From Jiangella gansuensis DSM 44835 (lineage in GTDB: Bacteria; Actinomycetota; Actinomycetes; Jiangellales; Jiangellaceae), in NCBI RefSeq assembly GCF_000515395.1, contig NZ_KI911782.1:1651090-1715089 (forward strand): 64,000 nt of DNA, written 5' to 3'. Both the position numbers and the translations under genes were made by a program. Of this stretch, positions 2,914 through 57,540 are shown piece by piece. The notes under the pieces are model-generated. The model worked only from the letters and a program-made list of their open reading frames with translations. It ran no database searches and had not been told where the DNA came from. Position 1 is the first letter of the stretch. Each line of letters opens with the position of its first letter.

Positions 2914-3471
2914 ATGACCACGACGACTGACTTCACCCAGCTGACCGGCGACTACACGATCGACGCCAGCCACACCCGCATCGGTTTCGTCGCCCGGCAC
3001 GCGATGGTGACCAAGGTCCGCGGCGCCTTCAACGAGTTCGACGGCGGCTTCCACATCGACGGTGAGGACCCGAGCAGGTCCACCGCGAAGGTCGTCATCA
3101 AGGCCGCCAGCATCGACACGCGCAACGAGCAGCGTGACGGTCACCTGCGGACCAACGACTTCCTCGAGATCGAGACCTACCCGGAGATCACGTTCGTCTC
3201 CACGTCTGTCGAGCAGATCGACGAGACGACGTTCCGCGTCACCGGCGACCTGACCATCAAGGACGTCACCCGCCCGGTCTCGGTCGACTTCGATTACCAC
3301 GGCTCGGCCGTCGACCCGTTCGGCAACGCCCGGGTGGGCTTCGAGGGCTCCGTCGTCATCAACCGCAAGGACTTCAACGTCACCTGGAACGCCCCGCTCG
3401 AGGCCGGCGGCGTGCTCGTCAGCGAGAAGGTCACGCTGGAGTTCGAGGTGTCCGCGATCAAGTCGGCCTGA
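2914..3471 (+). CDS. YceI family protein (lipocalin-like polyisoprenoid-binding fold)
   Basis: 185 residues. It opens with DYTIDASHTRIGFVARHAMV, the YceI signature, followed by VRGAFNEFDGGF, ASIDTRNEQRDGHLRTNDF and FRVTGDLTIKDVTRPV. The family folds as a lipocalin-like barrel that binds isoprenoids such as quinones. There is no signal peptide, so it is expected in the cytoplasm, unlike E. coli YceI. An AAGGAG ribosome binding site sits 9 bases before ATG 2914. The MarR/YceI divergent arrangement suggests control by that regulator, perhaps in response to a hydrophobic compound or oxidative stress. Confidence 0.9.
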   Translation: MTTTTDFTQLTGDYTIDASHTRIGFVARHAMVTKVRGAFNEFDGGFHIDGEDPSRSTAKVVIKAASIDTRNEQRDGHLRTNDFLEIETYPEITFVSTSVEQIDETTFRVTGDLTIKDVTRPVSVDFDYHGSAVDPFGNARVGFEGSVVINRKDFNVTWNAPLEAGGVLVSEKVTLEFEVSAIKSA

Positions 3472-51988: not shown

Positions 51989-52516
51989 TCAGTCGTCGGT
52001 GTCGGTGCGGATCTCCGGCTCGACGGCGCCGTCGACGCAGCGCAGCCGGACCTCGATCTCGGTCCGGTCGTTCTCGAACTTCACCGAGGGGTGGTCGTCG
52101 TCATCGTCGTCGGCGTCGACGTCGTAGCCCTGGGCGGGGGCCGCGGACTGGATCTCGACCAGGCCGCCGGAGACGCAGCGGGCGACCACCGTGCCGGCGC
52201 CGGTGTCGATCACGCGGGACTCGCCGGCCGTGGGGGTGGCGGTCGGCGTCGGCGTCGGTGTATCGGTCGGCGACGGCCGGTTCGGCGGCGGCTCGGACGA
52301 GGACGGAGGGGGAGACGACGGCGGGGTGGTTCCGGTGGGTTCCGGGGTGGCCAGCCGCTGTTCGACCTCGGCCTGGGTGAGCGGTTCCTGGCTGGAGCCG
52401 AAGATGTCGCTGCCGATCATCCCGACGGCGGCCATGCCGACGGCCGTGGCACCGGCCGCGGCGGCGAGCCACAGCAGCGCCACCGTCCCGATACGCACCC
52501 ACCGCGACCTGGTCAT
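51989..52516 (-). CDS. membrane-anchored Pro/Ser/Thr-rich protein
   Basis: 175 residues. N-terminal membrane helix IGTVALLWLAAAAGATAVGMAAVGMIG, then a long Pro/Ser/Thr linker (TGTTPPSSPPPSSSEPPPNRPSPTDTPTPTPTATPT) and a small C-terminal domain with two Cys (ARCVSGG and LRCVDG) and an Asp run DADDDDDDH. Predicted to be displayed outside the membrane. Divergent from the response regulator gene; its start is 24 bp from the shared 20-bp motif, so it may be under the same control. Function unknown. Confidence 0.6.
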   Translation of the reverse strand: MTRSRWVRIGTVALLWLAAAAGATAVGMAAVGMIGSDIFGSSQEPLTQAEVEQRLATPEPTGTTPPSSPPPSSSEPPPNRPSPTDTPTPTPTATPTAGESRVIDTGAGTVVARCVSGGLVEIQSAAPAQGYDVDADDDDDDHPSVKFENDRTEIEVRLRCVDGAVEPEIRTDTDD

Positions 52517-52539
52517 GTGCGGCAGTATGCCCGTGGTCC

Positions 52540-52559
52540 GGGTTAAGACGCCCCTAACG
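52540..52559 (+). promoter_or_regulatory. candidate response-regulator site, copy 1
   Basis: GGTTAAGACGCCCCTAACGC lies between divergent genes, 61 bp before the response regulator start. 16 of 20 bases match the inverse of 54912-54931. It reads as two TAAS-type half-sites about 11 bp apart (TTAAGACGC and CTAACGC), the direct-repeat layout used by OmpR/PhoB regulators. Confidence 0.5.
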
Positions 52560-52619
52560 CGGCCCTATGCGAGCCCGTCGCGCGCCGACAGGGCGCTGCG
52601 GTGCCCTATCGTTCCCGGC

Positions 52620-53303
52620 ATGGCGCAGGTACTCGTCGTGGAGGACGACGCGACCATCCGCTCGGCGCTGATCCGCGGCCTGACCGAGCGGGGGCACGCG
52701 GTGCGGTCGGCGCCGACGGCGATGTCCGGGCTGGAGCAGGCGGTCGGTGAGCGTCCCGACGTCGTCGTGCTCGATCTTGGACTGCCCGATCTCGACGGGA
52801 CGGCGATGCTGCGGATGCTGCGCGGCGTCAGCGACGTGCCGGTGATCGTGGCGACGGCACGCGACGACGAGAGCGAGGTCGTCGCCGTCCTGGACGCCGG
52901 CGCCGACGACTACGTGACCAAGCCGTTCGGCGTCGCTCAGCTGGACGCCCGCATCCGGGCCGTCCTGCGCCGCGGCGGCGAGGAGCAGCGGGAGCAGGCC
53001 GTCAGCGTCGGCGGGCTGCGGGTCGACCCGCGCAGCAGGGAGGCGACGCTGGACGGCGCGCTGCTGGAGCTGACCCCGCGCGAGTTCGACCTGCTGCACT
53101 ACCTGGCCGCCCGGGCCGGCGAGGTGGTGAGCAAGCGCGACCTGCTCACCGAGGTCTGGCAGCTGCCCTACGGCGGGGCGGACAAGACCGTCGACGTCCA
53201 TCTGTCCTGGCTGCGCCGCAAGCTCGGCGAGACCGCGCAGGAGCCCCGCTACCTGCATGCCGTTCGCGGCGTCGGGGTCCGGCTCAGCCCACCGGTGGAG
53301 TGA
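52620..53303 (+). CDS. OmpR/PhoB-family response regulator
   Basis: 227 residues. Receiver: VLVVEDDATIRSALIRGL with the acidic pair, phospho-acceptor Asp in VVVLDLGLPDLDG near 51, Thr in VIVATARDDE and Lys in DYVTKPFG. The C-terminal winged helix: LLELTPREFDLLHYLAARAGEVVSKRDLLTEVWQ and KTVDVHLSWLRRKLGE. It should be phosphorylated by the histidine kinase encoded 6 bp downstream. A candidate autoregulatory site lies 61 bp upstream. The start ATG 52620 matches family length. Confidence 0.95.
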   Translation: MAQVLVVEDDATIRSALIRGLTERGHAVRSAPTAMSGLEQAVGERPDVVVLDLGLPDLDGTAMLRMLRGVSDVPVIVATARDDESEVVAVLDAGADDYVTKPFGVAQLDARIRAVLRRGGEEQREQAVSVGGLRVDPRSREATLDGALLELTPREFDLLHYLAARAGEVVSKRDLLTEVWQLPYGGADKTVDVHLSWLRRKLGETAQEPRYLHAVRGVGVRLSPPVE

Positions 53304-53309
53304 CGGCCC

Positions 53310-54599
53310 GTGCGCCGCCGGCTGCTCGTCCTCGTCACCGCCACCACGCTGCTCGTGCTGGTGGCGTTCCTGGTGCCGCTGGCACTGCTGGTGCGCGGCG
53401 TCGCGGCCGACCGGGCGGTGCAGGCGGCGACCGTCGAGGCGCAGACGCTGACCTCGCTGGTCGCGACGATGGATCGGGCGTCGCTCGGTCTCGTGGTGGA
53501 GCAGCTCGACGCGACGTCTCGGTTCGACGTGACGGTGTTCCTGCCCGGCGGCGACCCGCTCGGCGCCCCGGCGGACCGGTCGTCGCTGGTGGAGCTGGCG
53601 GAGCGGGGGACCAGCGCGTCGGCGCAGGCGCCCGGTGGCCGGGAGATCGTGTTCGCCGTCGACGGGCCGGCCGGCAGCGTCGGCGTCATCCGCACGTTCG
53701 TCCCCGACGACGAGCTGAACCGTGGCGTCGGCCGCGCGTGGCTGCTGCTGGCTGGGCTGGGGGTGGCTCTGCTGCTGGTGAGCCTCGTGGTGGCGGACCG
53801 GCTGGCCCGGCGGTTGGTCCGGTCGGCGACGGAGCTCGCGGCGGTCTCGCACCGGCTGGGCCGTGGCGAGCTGGACGCCCGGGCCGACACGTCCGCGCCG
53901 GGCGAACTGGGTGTGGTGGCCGGTGCGCTGAACGGGCTGGCGCGGCGCATCACCGGCCTGCTGCGCGAGGAGCGCGAGACCATCGCCGACCTGTCGCACC
54001 GGGTGCGCACCCCGTTGACGACGCTGCGGATGGACGCCGAGGCCGTGCCGGACCCCGACCAGTCCGAACGGCTCGTCGCCGGCGTCGACGCGGTGAACCG
54101 GGCCGTGACGGAGGCGATCCAGCAGGCCCGCACCCGTGGCTCGGACGCAGCGGCCGCGGACGCCGCCGACGTGGTACGGGAACGGGTCGCGTTCTGGTCC
54201 GTGCTGGCCGAGGACACCGAGCGGGACCTGACGGTGGACGTGGCACCCGGACCGCTGCCGGTGGCGCTGAACCGCGTCGACCTCGAGGCCTGCGTCGACG
54301 CACTGCTCGGCAACGTCTTCGCGCACACCCCGCACGGCACGGCCTTCACGGTCCGGCTGCGCGCCGGGGACACGGGCGGTGCCACGCTCGTCGTCGCCGA
54401 CCAGGGTCCCGGCCTGCCCGACGGACCCACGACCGGCGTGCTGCGCCGCGGCGTCAGCGGTTCCGGCTCCAGCGGACTCGGCGTCGACATCGTGCGCCGG
54501 ACCGCGGAGCGCAGCGGCGGCACGCTCCGCCTGGAGCCGACGCCCGGCGGCGGCCTCACCGTCGTCGTCGACCTCGGCCAGCGCTCCATGCCCGACTGA
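53310..54599 (+). CDS. sensor histidine kinase
   Basis: 429 residues. Two membrane helices (LLVLVTATTLLVLVAFLVPLALLV and GRAWLLLAGLGVALLLVSLVV) enclose a sensor of about 110 residues. HAMP region follows; H-box DLSHRVRTPLTTLRMDAEA has the phospho-His near 229; N-box LLGNVFAHTPHG; G-boxes VVADQGPGLP and SGSSGLGVDIV. It senses an envelope cue and signals to the regulator encoded 6 bp upstream. The GTG start at 53310 is supported by the spacing. The 408-bp gap downstream has a cluster of short palindromic repeats before the PepSY gene. Confidence 0.93.
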   Translation: MRRRLLVLVTATTLLVLVAFLVPLALLVRGVAADRAVQAATVEAQTLTSLVATMDRASLGLVVEQLDATSRFDVTVFLPGGDPLGAPADRSSLVELAERGTSASAQAPGGREIVFAVDGPAGSVGVIRTFVPDDELNRGVGRAWLLLAGLGVALLLVSLVVADRLARRLVRSATELAAVSHRLGRGELDARADTSAPGELGVVAGALNGLARRITGLLREERETIADLSHRVRTPLTTLRMDAEAVPDPDQSERLVAGVDAVNRAVTEAIQQARTRGSDAAAADAADVVRERVAFWSVLAEDTERDLTVDVAPGPLPVALNRVDLEACVDALLGNVFAHTPHGTAFTVRLRAGDTGGATLVVADQGPGLPDGPTTGVLRRGVSGSGSSGLGVDIVRRTAERSGGTLRLEPTPGGGLTVVVDLGQRSMPD

Positions 54600-54699
54600 G
54601 CGCCGCGCCCCGGCAGCGACGACGAATCAGCCCAGATCCAGAGGCGGATGCGCCTGGGATCCCGGTATGCCGCGCCCAGGTCCGTGCGCTGGGGTGTGC

Positions 54700-54869
54700 C
54701 ACCTGATCGTCGTTGTGTCACCTGATCGTCGCGGCGTGGACGATCAGGTGTTCCGCGCGGTGGGCACGAGCGCCTGTGGTGCACCTGATCGTCGCCAGCA
54801 GGTGGACACGAAACGATCAGGCGACGTCGACGCGCTGATGAGGGCCGGGACGTCACCTGATCACCAGGT
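54700..54869. repeat. cluster of six CACCTGATCGTCG-type motifs
   Basis: Direct copies of CACCTGATCGTCG at 54700-54712, 54719-54731 and 54782-54794; inverse copies GGACGATCAGGTG at 54738-54750 and CGATCAGGCGACG at 54814-54826; CACCTGATCACCAGGT at 54854-54869. Copies two and three make a perfect 12-bp hairpin with 8-nt loop. The gap 54600-55007 holds no gene. Confidence 0.75.
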
Positions 54870-54911
54870 CATGGCCGCATCGCCGGTCCGGTCGTGACCC
54901 ATTCCGCGCGG

Positions 54912-54931
54912 GCCTTAGCCGCGCCTTAACC
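54912..54931 (-). promoter_or_regulatory. candidate response-regulator site, copy 2
   Basis: On the minus strand GGTTAAGGCGCGGCTAAGGC, matching copy 1 at 52540-52559 in 16 of 20 bases, including GGTTAAG, CGC and CTAA. It is 77 bp before the PepSY gene start. Confidence 0.5.
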
Positions 54932-55007
54932 ACCGGGCAGCGCGGCGCTAGGCCGATCGGCGCGAACGTGGTGGTCATTCGAGAGAAACGATTCGAGGGA
55001 GACCATC

Positions 55008-55565
55008 ATGACCAGGAACCGTATGCTCGCCGCCGCGGCCGCCGCCGGTGCGCTGGTGATCACCGCCGGCACCGCGTTCGCGCTGAACGACGACGATACG
55101 GGCCCGGCGGGTTCGCCGGCCGCCGTGACCGCGACGCCGGACGACTCGCCCAGCCCGAGCGCCTCCGGCACGCCGGACGACACGCCGTCGCAGCCGCCGA
55201 GCACCATGCCGAGCGAACCCGACACCACGGCCATCAGCAGCGACGACGCCGCGCAGATCGCCGTCGGCCACGTCGGTGGCGGTGACGTCCACGAGATCGA
55301 GCGGGAGATGGAGCACGGCCGGCTGGAGTGGAAGGTCGAGGTCGTGCTCGACGGGGTCGAGCACGACGTCCGAGTCGACGCCGGAACGGGTGAGATCACC
55401 CGGGTCGACGTGGACGACGACAACGACGACCGGCGCGACGACGACGACGATCACGACGACCGGCGCGACGACGACGATCACGACGACCGGCATGACGACG
55501 ACCGGCATGACGACGACCACGACGACCGGGACGACGACGATCACGACGATCACGACGACAAGTGA
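55008..55565 (+). CDS. secreted PepSY-domain protein with Asp/His-rich tail
   Basis: 185 residues. Signal peptide MLAAAAAAGALVITAGTAFA, cleavage near residue 25. A Pro/Ser/Thr linker, then a PepSY domain (ISSDDAAQIAVGHVGGGDVHEIEREMEHGRLEWKVEVVLDGVEHDVRVDAGTGEITRVD) near 75-138. The final 45 residues consist almost only of Asp, His and Arg, with units DDRRDDDD, HDDRRDDD, RHDDD. Such a tail could bind Ca or other divalent ions. PepSY proteins control peptidases or sense the envelope. GGGAGA precedes ATG 55008. A copy of the putative response-regulator site lies upstream. A strong terminator follows the stop. Confidence 0.78.
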   Translation: MTRNRMLAAAAAAGALVITAGTAFALNDDDTGPAGSPAAVTATPDDSPSPSASGTPDDTPSQPPSTMPSEPDTTAISSDDAAQIAVGHVGGGDVHEIEREMEHGRLEWKVEVVLDGVEHDVRVDAGTGEITRVDVDDDNDDRRDDDDDHDDRRDDDDHDDRHDDDRHDDDHDDRDDDDHDDHDDK

Positions 55566-55690: not shown

Positions 55691-56215
55691 GTGGATTCTC
55701 GAGCAGAGCGCGAGTTCAGGGAGTTCGTGGACTCCCGCTCGCTGGCCCTGCGCCGTACCGCGTACGCCCTGACCGGCGACCTGGACACGGCGGAGGACCT
55801 GGTTCAGGGCGCACTGGTCAAGCTGGTCCGGCGGTGGCACAAGGTCGACAACCCCGAGGCCTACGTGCGGCGCACCATCTACAACGACCGGGCCAGCCGG
55901 TGGCGTCGGCGTTCGGTGATCCGTGAGGACTCCGTGGAGGTCACGCCTGACCGGCCGGTCGCGGACACGGCTGGTGACGTCGACGCCCGGCTCGACCTGC
56001 GGCAGGCGTTGTTGCGGTTGGCGCCGCGGCAACGGGCCGTCGTGGTCCTGCGGTTCTACGAGGACCTGGGCGAGCGCGAGGTCGCCGAGCTCCTGGGCTG
56101 TTCGGTGGGCACGGTGCGCAGTCAGACCGCCCGGGCACTGGCCCGGCTGCGGCTCGTCGCACCGGAGCTGGCCGCCGACGCCGCTCTTCCCACTCCCGAG
56201 GAGGCATCAGCATGA
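55691..56215 (+). CDS. SigE-family ECF RNA polymerase sigma factor
   Basis: 174 residues. Sigma2: FVDSRSLALRRTAYALTGDLDTAEDLVQGALVKLVRRWHKVDNPEAYVRRTIYNDRASRWRRR near 12-75. Sigma4: LRLAPRQRAVVVLRFYEDLGEREVAELLGCSVGTVRSQTARALARLR near 105-155. This is the TIGR02983/SigE-fam_strep group. GGAGGAGAGG precedes GTG 55691. The next gene overlaps by ATGA and probably encodes its membrane anti-sigma partner. Confidence 0.9.
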   Translation: MDSRAEREFREFVDSRSLALRRTAYALTGDLDTAEDLVQGALVKLVRRWHKVDNPEAYVRRTIYNDRASRWRRRSVIREDSVEVTPDRPVADTAGDVDARLDLRQALLRLAPRQRAVVVLRFYEDLGEREVAELLGCSVGTVRSQTARALARLRLVAPELAADAALPTPEEASA

Positions 56216-57540
56216 CCATCGAGGACCAGCTGCGCGACGCGCTGGACGACTACACCGCTCGGGTGCGGCCGCGTGCGGGTCTCGCCGACGAGGTGTTGCG
56301 GCAGGCCAAGCGGCGCCGGACGGTGACGGGGCTGGCGACGGCTGGCGGCACCGCCGTGGCGGTCGCGGCCGGCACGCTGTTCGTCGTCGCCGACCCGCTC
56401 GCCACCGACTCCCCGGATCTGGGTTCGGTCGGCCCGGCGGCCGGTGGCGAGGATGCTGGTGAGACCACGCCGCAGGAGCCGGCCGGTGAGGTGACGGTGC
56501 CGCTGGACCCGGGCGCGCTGCCGGCCGGAACGGTGCCGGCGGTGCCGTACTACGACGGCGGAGTGGTGCACGTCGGCGACTGGGAGGTCCCGTTCGGGGA
56601 CGTCTACGCGTTCCGCGTGCTGACGGAGGTGGCCGGCGGGCTGGTCGGCCTTGCCGACCCCGTGCCCGTGGAGGGCGCCGAGGAGCAGGGTGACCACGTG
56701 CTCTGGCTGGCCGCGCGCGACGGCGAGCCGATGGAGCTGGGCTCGGGCCAGATCTACGACATCGGGGTCTCCGCCGACGGAACCCAGGTGGCGTGGGCCG
56801 AGCACGACTGGTCCACCGAGACCGAGGACGCCGGGCCGGGTCGCACGGTGGTCTACGTGGCCGACACCCGGACCGGTGCGGTGCTGCACGAGCTGGAGCA
56901 GACCGGTGCCGACGGTCCCGTCGGCACCGTGAAGGGCTTCCTGGCCGACGGCCGGGTGGTCCTGGACAGCGCCACCAACGCGCCGGGCGGGATCCACCTG
57001 TGGGATCCGGCGGCGGGCACGGTCACACCGTGGACCGATTTCGGATTCGTCAACGCGCTGGCACCAGGAGGTGACGTGGCGGTGCTCCACCCGGGGGGCG
57101 TGGAGGACCGCCCGGCGGTCGTCGACACCGTCACCGGTGAGGCCGTACGGGAGCTCGGCGTTCGCGAGCACGCCGGCCGGGATGCGTTCTCTCCGGACGG
57201 CCGTCATCTGGCGCTGATCGTCGCGAACCCGGACACCCCCGAGCTCGGGGTGGTCACGCCGAGCGACCCGACCGGTGCCGACGGGGGCGGGGCGGCCGCG
57301 CTGCCCGGCACGCTCGTCGTCTCGGATGTCCATACCGGCGAACCGGTCCTGACTCTGGACGGCGGCGACCCGGGCAGCGTCGTCTGGGAGCCCGACGGCA
57401 GCCTGCTGGTCGAGATGTGGGCCGACAACCGCACCCGTGCCAGCGTGGTGCGCTGCGATCTCGCCGGGCAGTGCGAGGCGGCCCTGCCCGAGGACGAGGC
57501 GCGCGACACCGGTTACCCGCTGCTGTACACGGGCCGCTGA
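56212..57540 (+). CDS. membrane-anchored beta-propeller protein, candidate anti-sigma factor
   Basis: 442 residues. A short cytoplasmic N-terminal part (IEDQLRDALDDYTARVRPRAGLADEVLRQAKRRR) precedes one membrane helix (TVTGLATAGGTAVAVAAGTLFVVA), then an outer domain with repeats of the TolB/WD-like type (VSADGTQVAWAEHDW, DGRVVLDSATNAPGGIHLWDPAAGTVTPW, RDAFSPDGRHLALIVANPD). This layout and the overlap with a SigE-family gene are typical of sigma-linked membrane proteins in Streptomyces-like genomes. Direct anti-sigma activity is inferred, not shown. Confidence 0.7.
   Translation: MTIEDQLRDALDDYTARVRPRAGLADEVLRQAKRRRTVTGLATAGGTAVAVAAGTLFVVADPLATDSPDLGSVGPAAGGEDAGETTPQEPAGEVTVPLDPGALPAGTVPAVPYYDGGVVHVGDWEVPFGDVYAFRVLTEVAGGLVGLADPVPVEGAEEQGDHVLWLAARDGEPMELGSGQIYDIGVSADGTQVAWAEHDWSTETEDAGPGRTVVYVADTRTGAVLHELEQTGADGPVGTVKGFLADGRVVLDSATNAPGGIHLWDPAAGTVTPWTDFGFVNALAPGGDVAVLHPGGVEDRPAVVDTVTGEAVRELGVREHAGRDAFSPDGRHLALIVANPDTPELGVVTPSDPTGADGGGAAALPGTLVVSDVHTGEPVLTLDGGDPGSVVWEPDGSLLVEMWADNRTRASVVRCDLAGQCEAALPEDEARDTGYPLLYTGR

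Follow-up and report, generated by a model that had tools for sequence, protein, structure and literature searches.

A conserved 6-bp-spacer direct repeat as the probable operator of a PepSY-linked two-component system in Jiangella and other Actinomycetes

Introduction

In Pseudomonas aeruginosa, the response regulator BqsR of the BqsRS (= CarRS) system is described as an activator that recognizes the operator TTAAG(N)6TTAAG and whose most downstream pentamer overlaps the -35 region (PMC4682146), and a second source places an iron motif, ExxE, in the membrane-proximal sensor helix of the kinase BqsS (PMC12666569). PepSY genes are reported to occur near two-component genes at more than 60-fold above chance, and the Vibrio PepSY protein DbfQ to bind the sensor domain of DbfS and push DbfS to phosphatase activity (PMC12714742). 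In actinobacteria, UipRS is encoded upstream of the uranium-binding PepSY protein UipA, and a review gives UipRS no demonstrated role (PMC8963506). In the WalRK system of Bacilli, the accessory proteins YycH and YycI control the kinase, YycI being called a PepSY protein in one source (PMC4282423).

Here we analyze a locus of Jiangella gansuensis, whose genus belongs to the class Actinomycetes, within a stretch of 64,000 nucleotides referred to throughout as the window. The genes concerned are as follows.

51989..52516, minus strand: surface-protein (SP) gene; product composed of membrane helix, Pro/Thr linker and a beta domain in which two Cys are invariant
52620..53303, plus strand: OmpR-family response regulator
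53310..54599, plus strand: histidine kinase with a PDC-type extracytoplasmic sensor domain
55008..55565, plus strand: secreted PepSY protein gene, with an Asp/His/Arg-rich tail at about 55416-55562

With BqsRS the locus shares the half-site and the 6-bp spacer (the predicted operator reads TTAAG-N6-CTAA(C,G) here, and spacer 6 alone is enriched among spacers of 0-15), arrays of more than two half-sites, and PepSY genes that adjoin the two-component genes. It differs in regulon size, 432 operators with up to two mutations being reported for the Pseudomonas genome versus one locus here, and in having the SP in addition and a downstream PepSY gene with its own predicted operator. Neither the window kinase nor the consensus of 34 sensors has ExxE in the membrane-proximal helix; the window kinase does carry an ELAE at 95-98, but outside that helix and with no counterpart in the consensus. 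DbfQRS of Vibrio cholerae likewise has a small secreted PepSY protein beside the system, within a few genes here too, and positive autoregulation is reported there; dbfQ is upstream and predicted to be co-transcribed, whereas the PepSY gene lies downstream here. UipRS-UipA of Microbacterium is likewise an actinobacterial pairing in which the two-component genes precede that for a PepSY protein, but UipA has tandem PepSY domains against the one PepSY match found here. The modeled kinase sensor resembles the extracellular domain of WalK (Z about 12), a shared fold that shows no function, and WalRK/YycH/YycI differs in lineage and gene order. CutRS of Streptomyces is also an actinobacterial two-component system tied to secreted proteins; a CutR-type site was considered and rejected, the published CutR consensus being TAWATAAA versus TTAAG-N6-CTAA here. 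By analogy, the system would work like a module of the BqsRS/DbfQRS type, with membership in either not implied, and to what is described for these it would add the SP, a one-locus regulon in Jiangella, and targets with or without PepSY.

Proteins of the locus

The regulator matched PF00072 (92 bits) and PF00486 (84.9 bits), each above cut-off, as receiver and winged-helix effector domain. In the kinase, HAMP and HATPase_c scored above cut-off and HisKA at 25.2 bits against a cut-off of 26.9. The sensor model (pLDDT 88.7) is of the PDC/Cache type, with WalK, DcuS and CitA as structural neighbors (Z about 11-13), and no Pfam family was found for this sensor in 34 members. The PepSY protein of the window contains a single PepSY stretch by Pfam, and the tails of PepSY proteins differ greatly between members. 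The C-terminal beta domain of SP, with both Cys invariant in 34 sequences, was modeled as a block of pLDDT 88-98 from residue 101 on. SP had no Pfam family at cut-off and none common to its members, and the search for a solved relative with a confident score returned none (best Foldseek E 0.08, best Z 6.0); such weak structural matches do not establish a new fold, and SP is treated here as an unnamed surface-protein family.

Two further features accompany these genes. Downstream of the PepSY gene, window 55691-57540 holds a SigE-family ECF sigma gene, present in 8 of the 11 other same-genus loci fetched, and a gene for a protein without a Pfam match. Between the kinase and PepSY genes (window 54700-54793), CACCTGATCGTC occurs four times in both orientations in a segment with strong predicted RNA folding (z -4.1); with 62 genome copies, many as inverted pairs, against 0 for the reversed-pattern control, it resembles a dispersed REP-type element.

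Two matching sites

A preliminary description of the window had placed a shared 20-bp motif in front of the two-component operon and the PepSY gene, with half-sites about 11 bp apart as used by OmpR-type regulators and with the first copy abutting a divergent surface-protein gene. All of this was borne out except the start of the motif, which had been set at 52540 and lies one base later, at 52541. The reverse complement of site 2 equals site 1 at 16/20 positions, the starts of TTAAG and CTAA(C,G) are 11 bp apart in direct repeat, site 1 lies between the SP and regulator genes, and site 2 precedes the PepSY gene.

52541-52560, plus strand: site 1, GGTTAAGACGCCCCTAACGC
52543-52547 and 52554-52558, plus strand: half-sites TTAAG and CTAAC of site 1, at 11-bp pitch
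52565-52569: weak third half-site of site 1, CTATG, in register, read by eye
54912-54931, minus strand: site 2, whose reverse complement reads GGTTAAGGCGCGGCTAAGGC
54914-54918 and 54925-54929: half-sites of site 2, CTTAG and CTTAA as written on the plus strand
54936-54940 and 54947-54951: degenerate half-sites of site 2, GGCAG and GCTAG, keeping the 11-bp register, read by eye

Among all 20-mers on both strands of the 64-kb window, the best partner of site 1 was site 2, with runners-up at 14/20. The genome scan that the same description had proposed was run over the 5.59-Mb genome and found TTAAG-N6-CTAA four times, two of these being sites 1 and 2, and the reversed-pattern control once.

Conservation within Jiangella

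An orthologue of the regulator with 93-96% identity was present in 11/11 other genomes of the genus, and there was no match at E 1e-60 in 10/10 genomes from other genera of the family. With at most one core mismatch allowed, the orthologous loci kept the motif before PepSY in 12/12 and before the regulator in 11/12 Jiangella genomes, window included. The strict box pattern gave 25 matches in the 12 genomes, all at SP, regulator or PepSY, and 3 when reversed; this pattern was drawn from the sites themselves, so that the evidence lies only in location, spacing and strand.

Genomes with rearranged loci show which genes the box accompanies. In four Jiangella genomes (G001, G003, G008 and G009), 1.4 to 7.4 kb separate SP from the regulator, and the box stood about 25 bp before SP in 4/4 of them, while the regulator kept its own box in 3/4, G001 having none there. 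In G004 and G007, where PepSY lies further downstream, the box was beside PepSY in 2/2. At the three of these loci that keep the regulator box (L040, L042 and L047) an extra gene separates SP and regulator with its stop codon within the kept box; it presumably encodes a protein of the polysaccharide pyruvyl transferase kind, and the three insertions, being the same kind of gene, may be one event. No SP was found in 8/8 same-family genomes without the regulator (8 of 10 were used, the rest being small or incomplete), and each of 3 Jiangella genomes had one copy.

Conservation across Actinomycetes

A kinase profile search returned at least 80 named loci, 77 of them with a usable regulator start; L118 (kinase without adjoining regulator) and L128 and L157 (no regulator start within the locus) were dropped, and the duplicates L089, L090 and L131 remain inside the 77 and were left out of the geometry, phasing and 74-locus counts. 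The matches listed include Jiangella muralis and J. aurantiaca and the genera Pseudonocardia, Umezawaea, Micromonospora, Dactylosporangium, Nonomuraea, Streptosporangium, Amycolatopsis, Streptomyces and Glycomyces.

Orthologous regulators beyond the genus carry the box as well. Within 300 nt upstream of the regulator, [ACT]TAA[GC]-N6-[ACT]TAA[GC] was found in 56/77 loci among the matches listed, 56 times on the plus strand and 0 on the minus, and in the same loci spacers of 0-5 and 7-15 gave 0-2 matches and the reversed pattern 0; the 21/77 listed loci without a strict box before the regulator count against the operator reading. At 1800-2400 nt from the regulator start, the usual region of the PepSY start, the box occurred 37 times on the minus strand and once on the plus strand in the 77 listed loci, with 0 for other spacers and 0-2 for the reversed pattern. 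Among the matches listed, SP was divergent and near in 73/74 non-duplicate loci (1.8 kb away in L111), and PepSY lay within 5 kb in 50/74, a figure that likewise weighs against it. The strict pattern gave 3 matches against 18 for the control in 28 genomes without the regulator, these being the subset of 36 genomes without a regulator match that were not small or incomplete.

Related loci are not independent, and neither therefore are these counts, and the information content of the box is partly circular since the sites were picked by pattern. Allowing one mismatch raised the counts for other spacers and for the opposite strand as well, and the strict scan alone was used. The SP profile also drew PepSY proteins, probably via low-complexity linkers, and only divergent reading frames were counted as SP. 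A literature search at title/abstract level found no report of this box in Actinomycetes. Taken as sequence evidence, these data indicate that the operator is most likely conserved in many actinomycete genera. A pair of short sites within one window could in principle resemble each other by chance, but the rarity of the motif genome-wide, the location of all 25 Jiangella matches and the exact spacer across the 77 listed loci leave that explanation with a negligible probability, and we rejected it on the conservation across genera.

Promoter geometry

The order typical of the SP strand is CTTAG-N6-CTTAA, 12-13 nt, a -10 such as CATAGT, 6-7 nt, and the start codon. The corresponding elements of the window are as follows.

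52524..52529, minus strand: CATACT, predicted -10 for SP; TTAAG of site 1 is 13 nt away, and 7 nt lie between the -10 and the SP start
52607..52612, plus strand: TATCGT, predicted -10 for the regulator, with 7 nt between it and the start
54964..54969, plus strand: GAACGT, a possible, weak -10 for PepSY, lying 12 nt downstream of the last half-site, read by eye

NANNNT at 6-7 nt before the SP start had 56 matches among 70 loci, which suggests that the SP message is probably leaderless; TANNNT at -12 to -14 of the regulator gene had 82 matches among 92 loci, pointing to a regulator message that is probably leaderless too. The distance from box to SP start was 24-26 nt in 35/70 loci, 34-36 in 5, 46-48 in 16 and other in 14. 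SP starts were assigned by their distance to a Trp; several of those in Nonomuraea are probably wrong, and misplaced starts affect some of the "other" distances. Steps of about 11 bp fit extra in-register half-sites, which are plain by eye in L101, L129 and L132. At PepSY the box has the orientation seen at SP, and by eye the array continues as nnCAG-N6-GCTAT or GCTAG and then a possible -10; several Nonomuraea, Streptosporangium and Herbidospora have 35-36 nt between box and PepSY start. At the regulator the orientation is opposite to that at SP and PepSY, and the box-to-regulator distances fall on a 10.9-bp lattice (37 genus-collapsed values, R 0.675, jitter test 0/2000).

The PepSY protein had been proposed as the main target of an autoregulated system. 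It stands as a likely target, but its sole prominence does not, the divergent SP gene being at least as good a candidate: the box keeps a fixed distance to the SP -10, is oriented as at PepSY and accompanies SP in 4/4 genomes in which SP is separated. By this geometry the main targets would be the SP and PepSY genes. For autoregulation the evidence is divided. If the box served the SP and PepSY promoters only and the regulator operon were constitutive, leaderless and not autoregulated, the fixed orientation and distance at SP and PepSY would be expected, as would the more variable distance to the regulator and the missing box in G001; the box retained at the regulator in 3/4 genomes with a distant SP (though perhaps one event) and the helical phasing of the box-to-regulator distances argue against such an arrangement, which we consider unlikely without dismissing it. 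We favor a regulator operon that is itself under box control, so that autoregulation appears likely but second to SP and PepSY, with its opposite orientation, variable distance and G001 on the debit side.

Regulon size and other box-like sites

In the window's genome, HTAASN6HTAAS had 6 matches versus 9 reversed, and the four sites other than sites 1 and 2 are therefore at chance level. YTAASN6YTAAS gave 58 matches versus 124 reversed in the 12 Jiangella genomes, and a wider regulon in Jiangella was rejected since relaxed patterns fell below the reversed controls. Across 12 genomes of other genera the counts were 127 versus 222 reversed, with the relaxed pattern above control in 3/12 (G062, 14 vs 11; G063, 9 vs 4; G065, 17 vs 9), from which there may be a wider regulon in some other genera.

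Several individual sites were seen along the way. CTAAGGCTAGCCTAAC recurs in the three genomes G062, G063 and G065, differs from the present box and resembles a palindrome of the iron-regulator type. A recurrent Jiangella match falls in 23S rRNA (a check confined to the window's genome). Of 15 homologues of a serine hydrolase gene whose product has a Tat-type signal, 2 have a box oriented as at SP and PepSY, those of the window's genome (L060 about 3348-3363, genome 314347-314362) and of G005, the second box being that of L194; the hydrolase gene is a possible third regulon member on this pattern. In L175-L182, CTAAGAGGCCGCTAAC or close variants stand in the other orientation before an operon that we read as kdpFABC, in 8/12 Jiangella genomes, and this may perhaps be KdpE's own box.

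That kdp box, together with the many regulator paralogues in the genome (32 matches), gives some ground for supposing that the box belongs to a different OmpR-type regulator of the cell. Strict boxes, however, lie beside this regulator alone in the 12 Jiangella genomes and are at control level in the 28 genomes that lack it, and we regard a different reader as very improbable.

Tail-only proteins behind the predicted operator

We inspected 24 loci in which PepSY was missing, distant or cut off. Six of them have the operator followed by a secreted protein with an Asp/His-rich, DDHGG-type tail and no PepSY match in Pfam at E up to 1; the box of L105 is one base off the search pattern and was read by eye.

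L105, 7340-7750: tail-only protein, Amycolatopsis
L119, 7346-7768: tail-only protein, Amycolatopsis
L141, 7340-7828: tail-only protein, Dactylosporangium
L143, 7344-7799: tail-only protein, Dactylosporangium
L147, 7339-7686: tail-only protein, Dactylosporangium
L158, 7343-7798: tail-only protein, Dactylosporangium

Among the other 18 loci, a box followed by a PepSY gene is present in L145, and in L107 the contig ends shortly past the box; the remaining loci lacked both a box and a protein of this kind over the stretch examined. Because the same operator precedes a tail-only protein in six loci, PepSY need not be the key part.

Discussion

Conservation of the box, its exact spacing and orientation, its presence beside moved genes and its locality were computed directly. 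The explanation that we consider best, with a probability of roughly 0.8 for the whole, is that the two sites are operators of the regulator encoded between them, which activates SP and PepSY. The PDC-type membrane kinase would phosphorylate the regulator, which would then occupy (Y)TAAG half-sites at 11-bp pitch in a head-to-tail arrangement, immediately before the -10. It would thereby turn on a pair of extracytoplasmic proteins: SP, divergently encoded and anchored in the membrane, and the protein with PepSY domain and Asp/His tail. Since site 1 lies in the shared intergenic region, the regulator-kinase operon would probably be raised too.

Binding by this regulator, and activation over repression, are what we infer. 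Were the regulator instead to repress SP and PepSY by covering the -35 region until a signal lifts repression, the box would lie as it does, over or beside the expected -35 region; BqsR, with the same operator, is described as an activator whose last pentamer overlaps the -35, and repression seems to us improbable. SP and the PepSY protein would most likely act outside the membrane as feedback, binding the signal and/or the kinase sensor domain, and the signal would perhaps be a cation bound through the tail. With a Jiangella regulon of essentially one locus, the system would mainly set protein levels at its own sensor.

More tentatively, and with less than even confidence, we propose a self-contained sensing module of Actinomycetes in which a PDC-type kinase with a BqsR-like operator code has as its whole regulon its own two outside partners (SP, and an Asp/His-tail protein with or without PepSY), which together would buffer and report a cation or envelope signal.

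The SP family, the probable leaderless messages and the six tail-only operator loci are new here. The wiring of PepSY proteins to regulators is known in few cases, and here it is legible in the sequences of many genera: a single operator code and two targets outside the cytoplasm, with next to nothing more in the Jiangella genomes. The locus thus offers a first functional lead for the SP family and a clean system for separating the roles of the PepSY domain and the Asp/His-rich tail, and the tail-only loci single out that tail as the part to test first.
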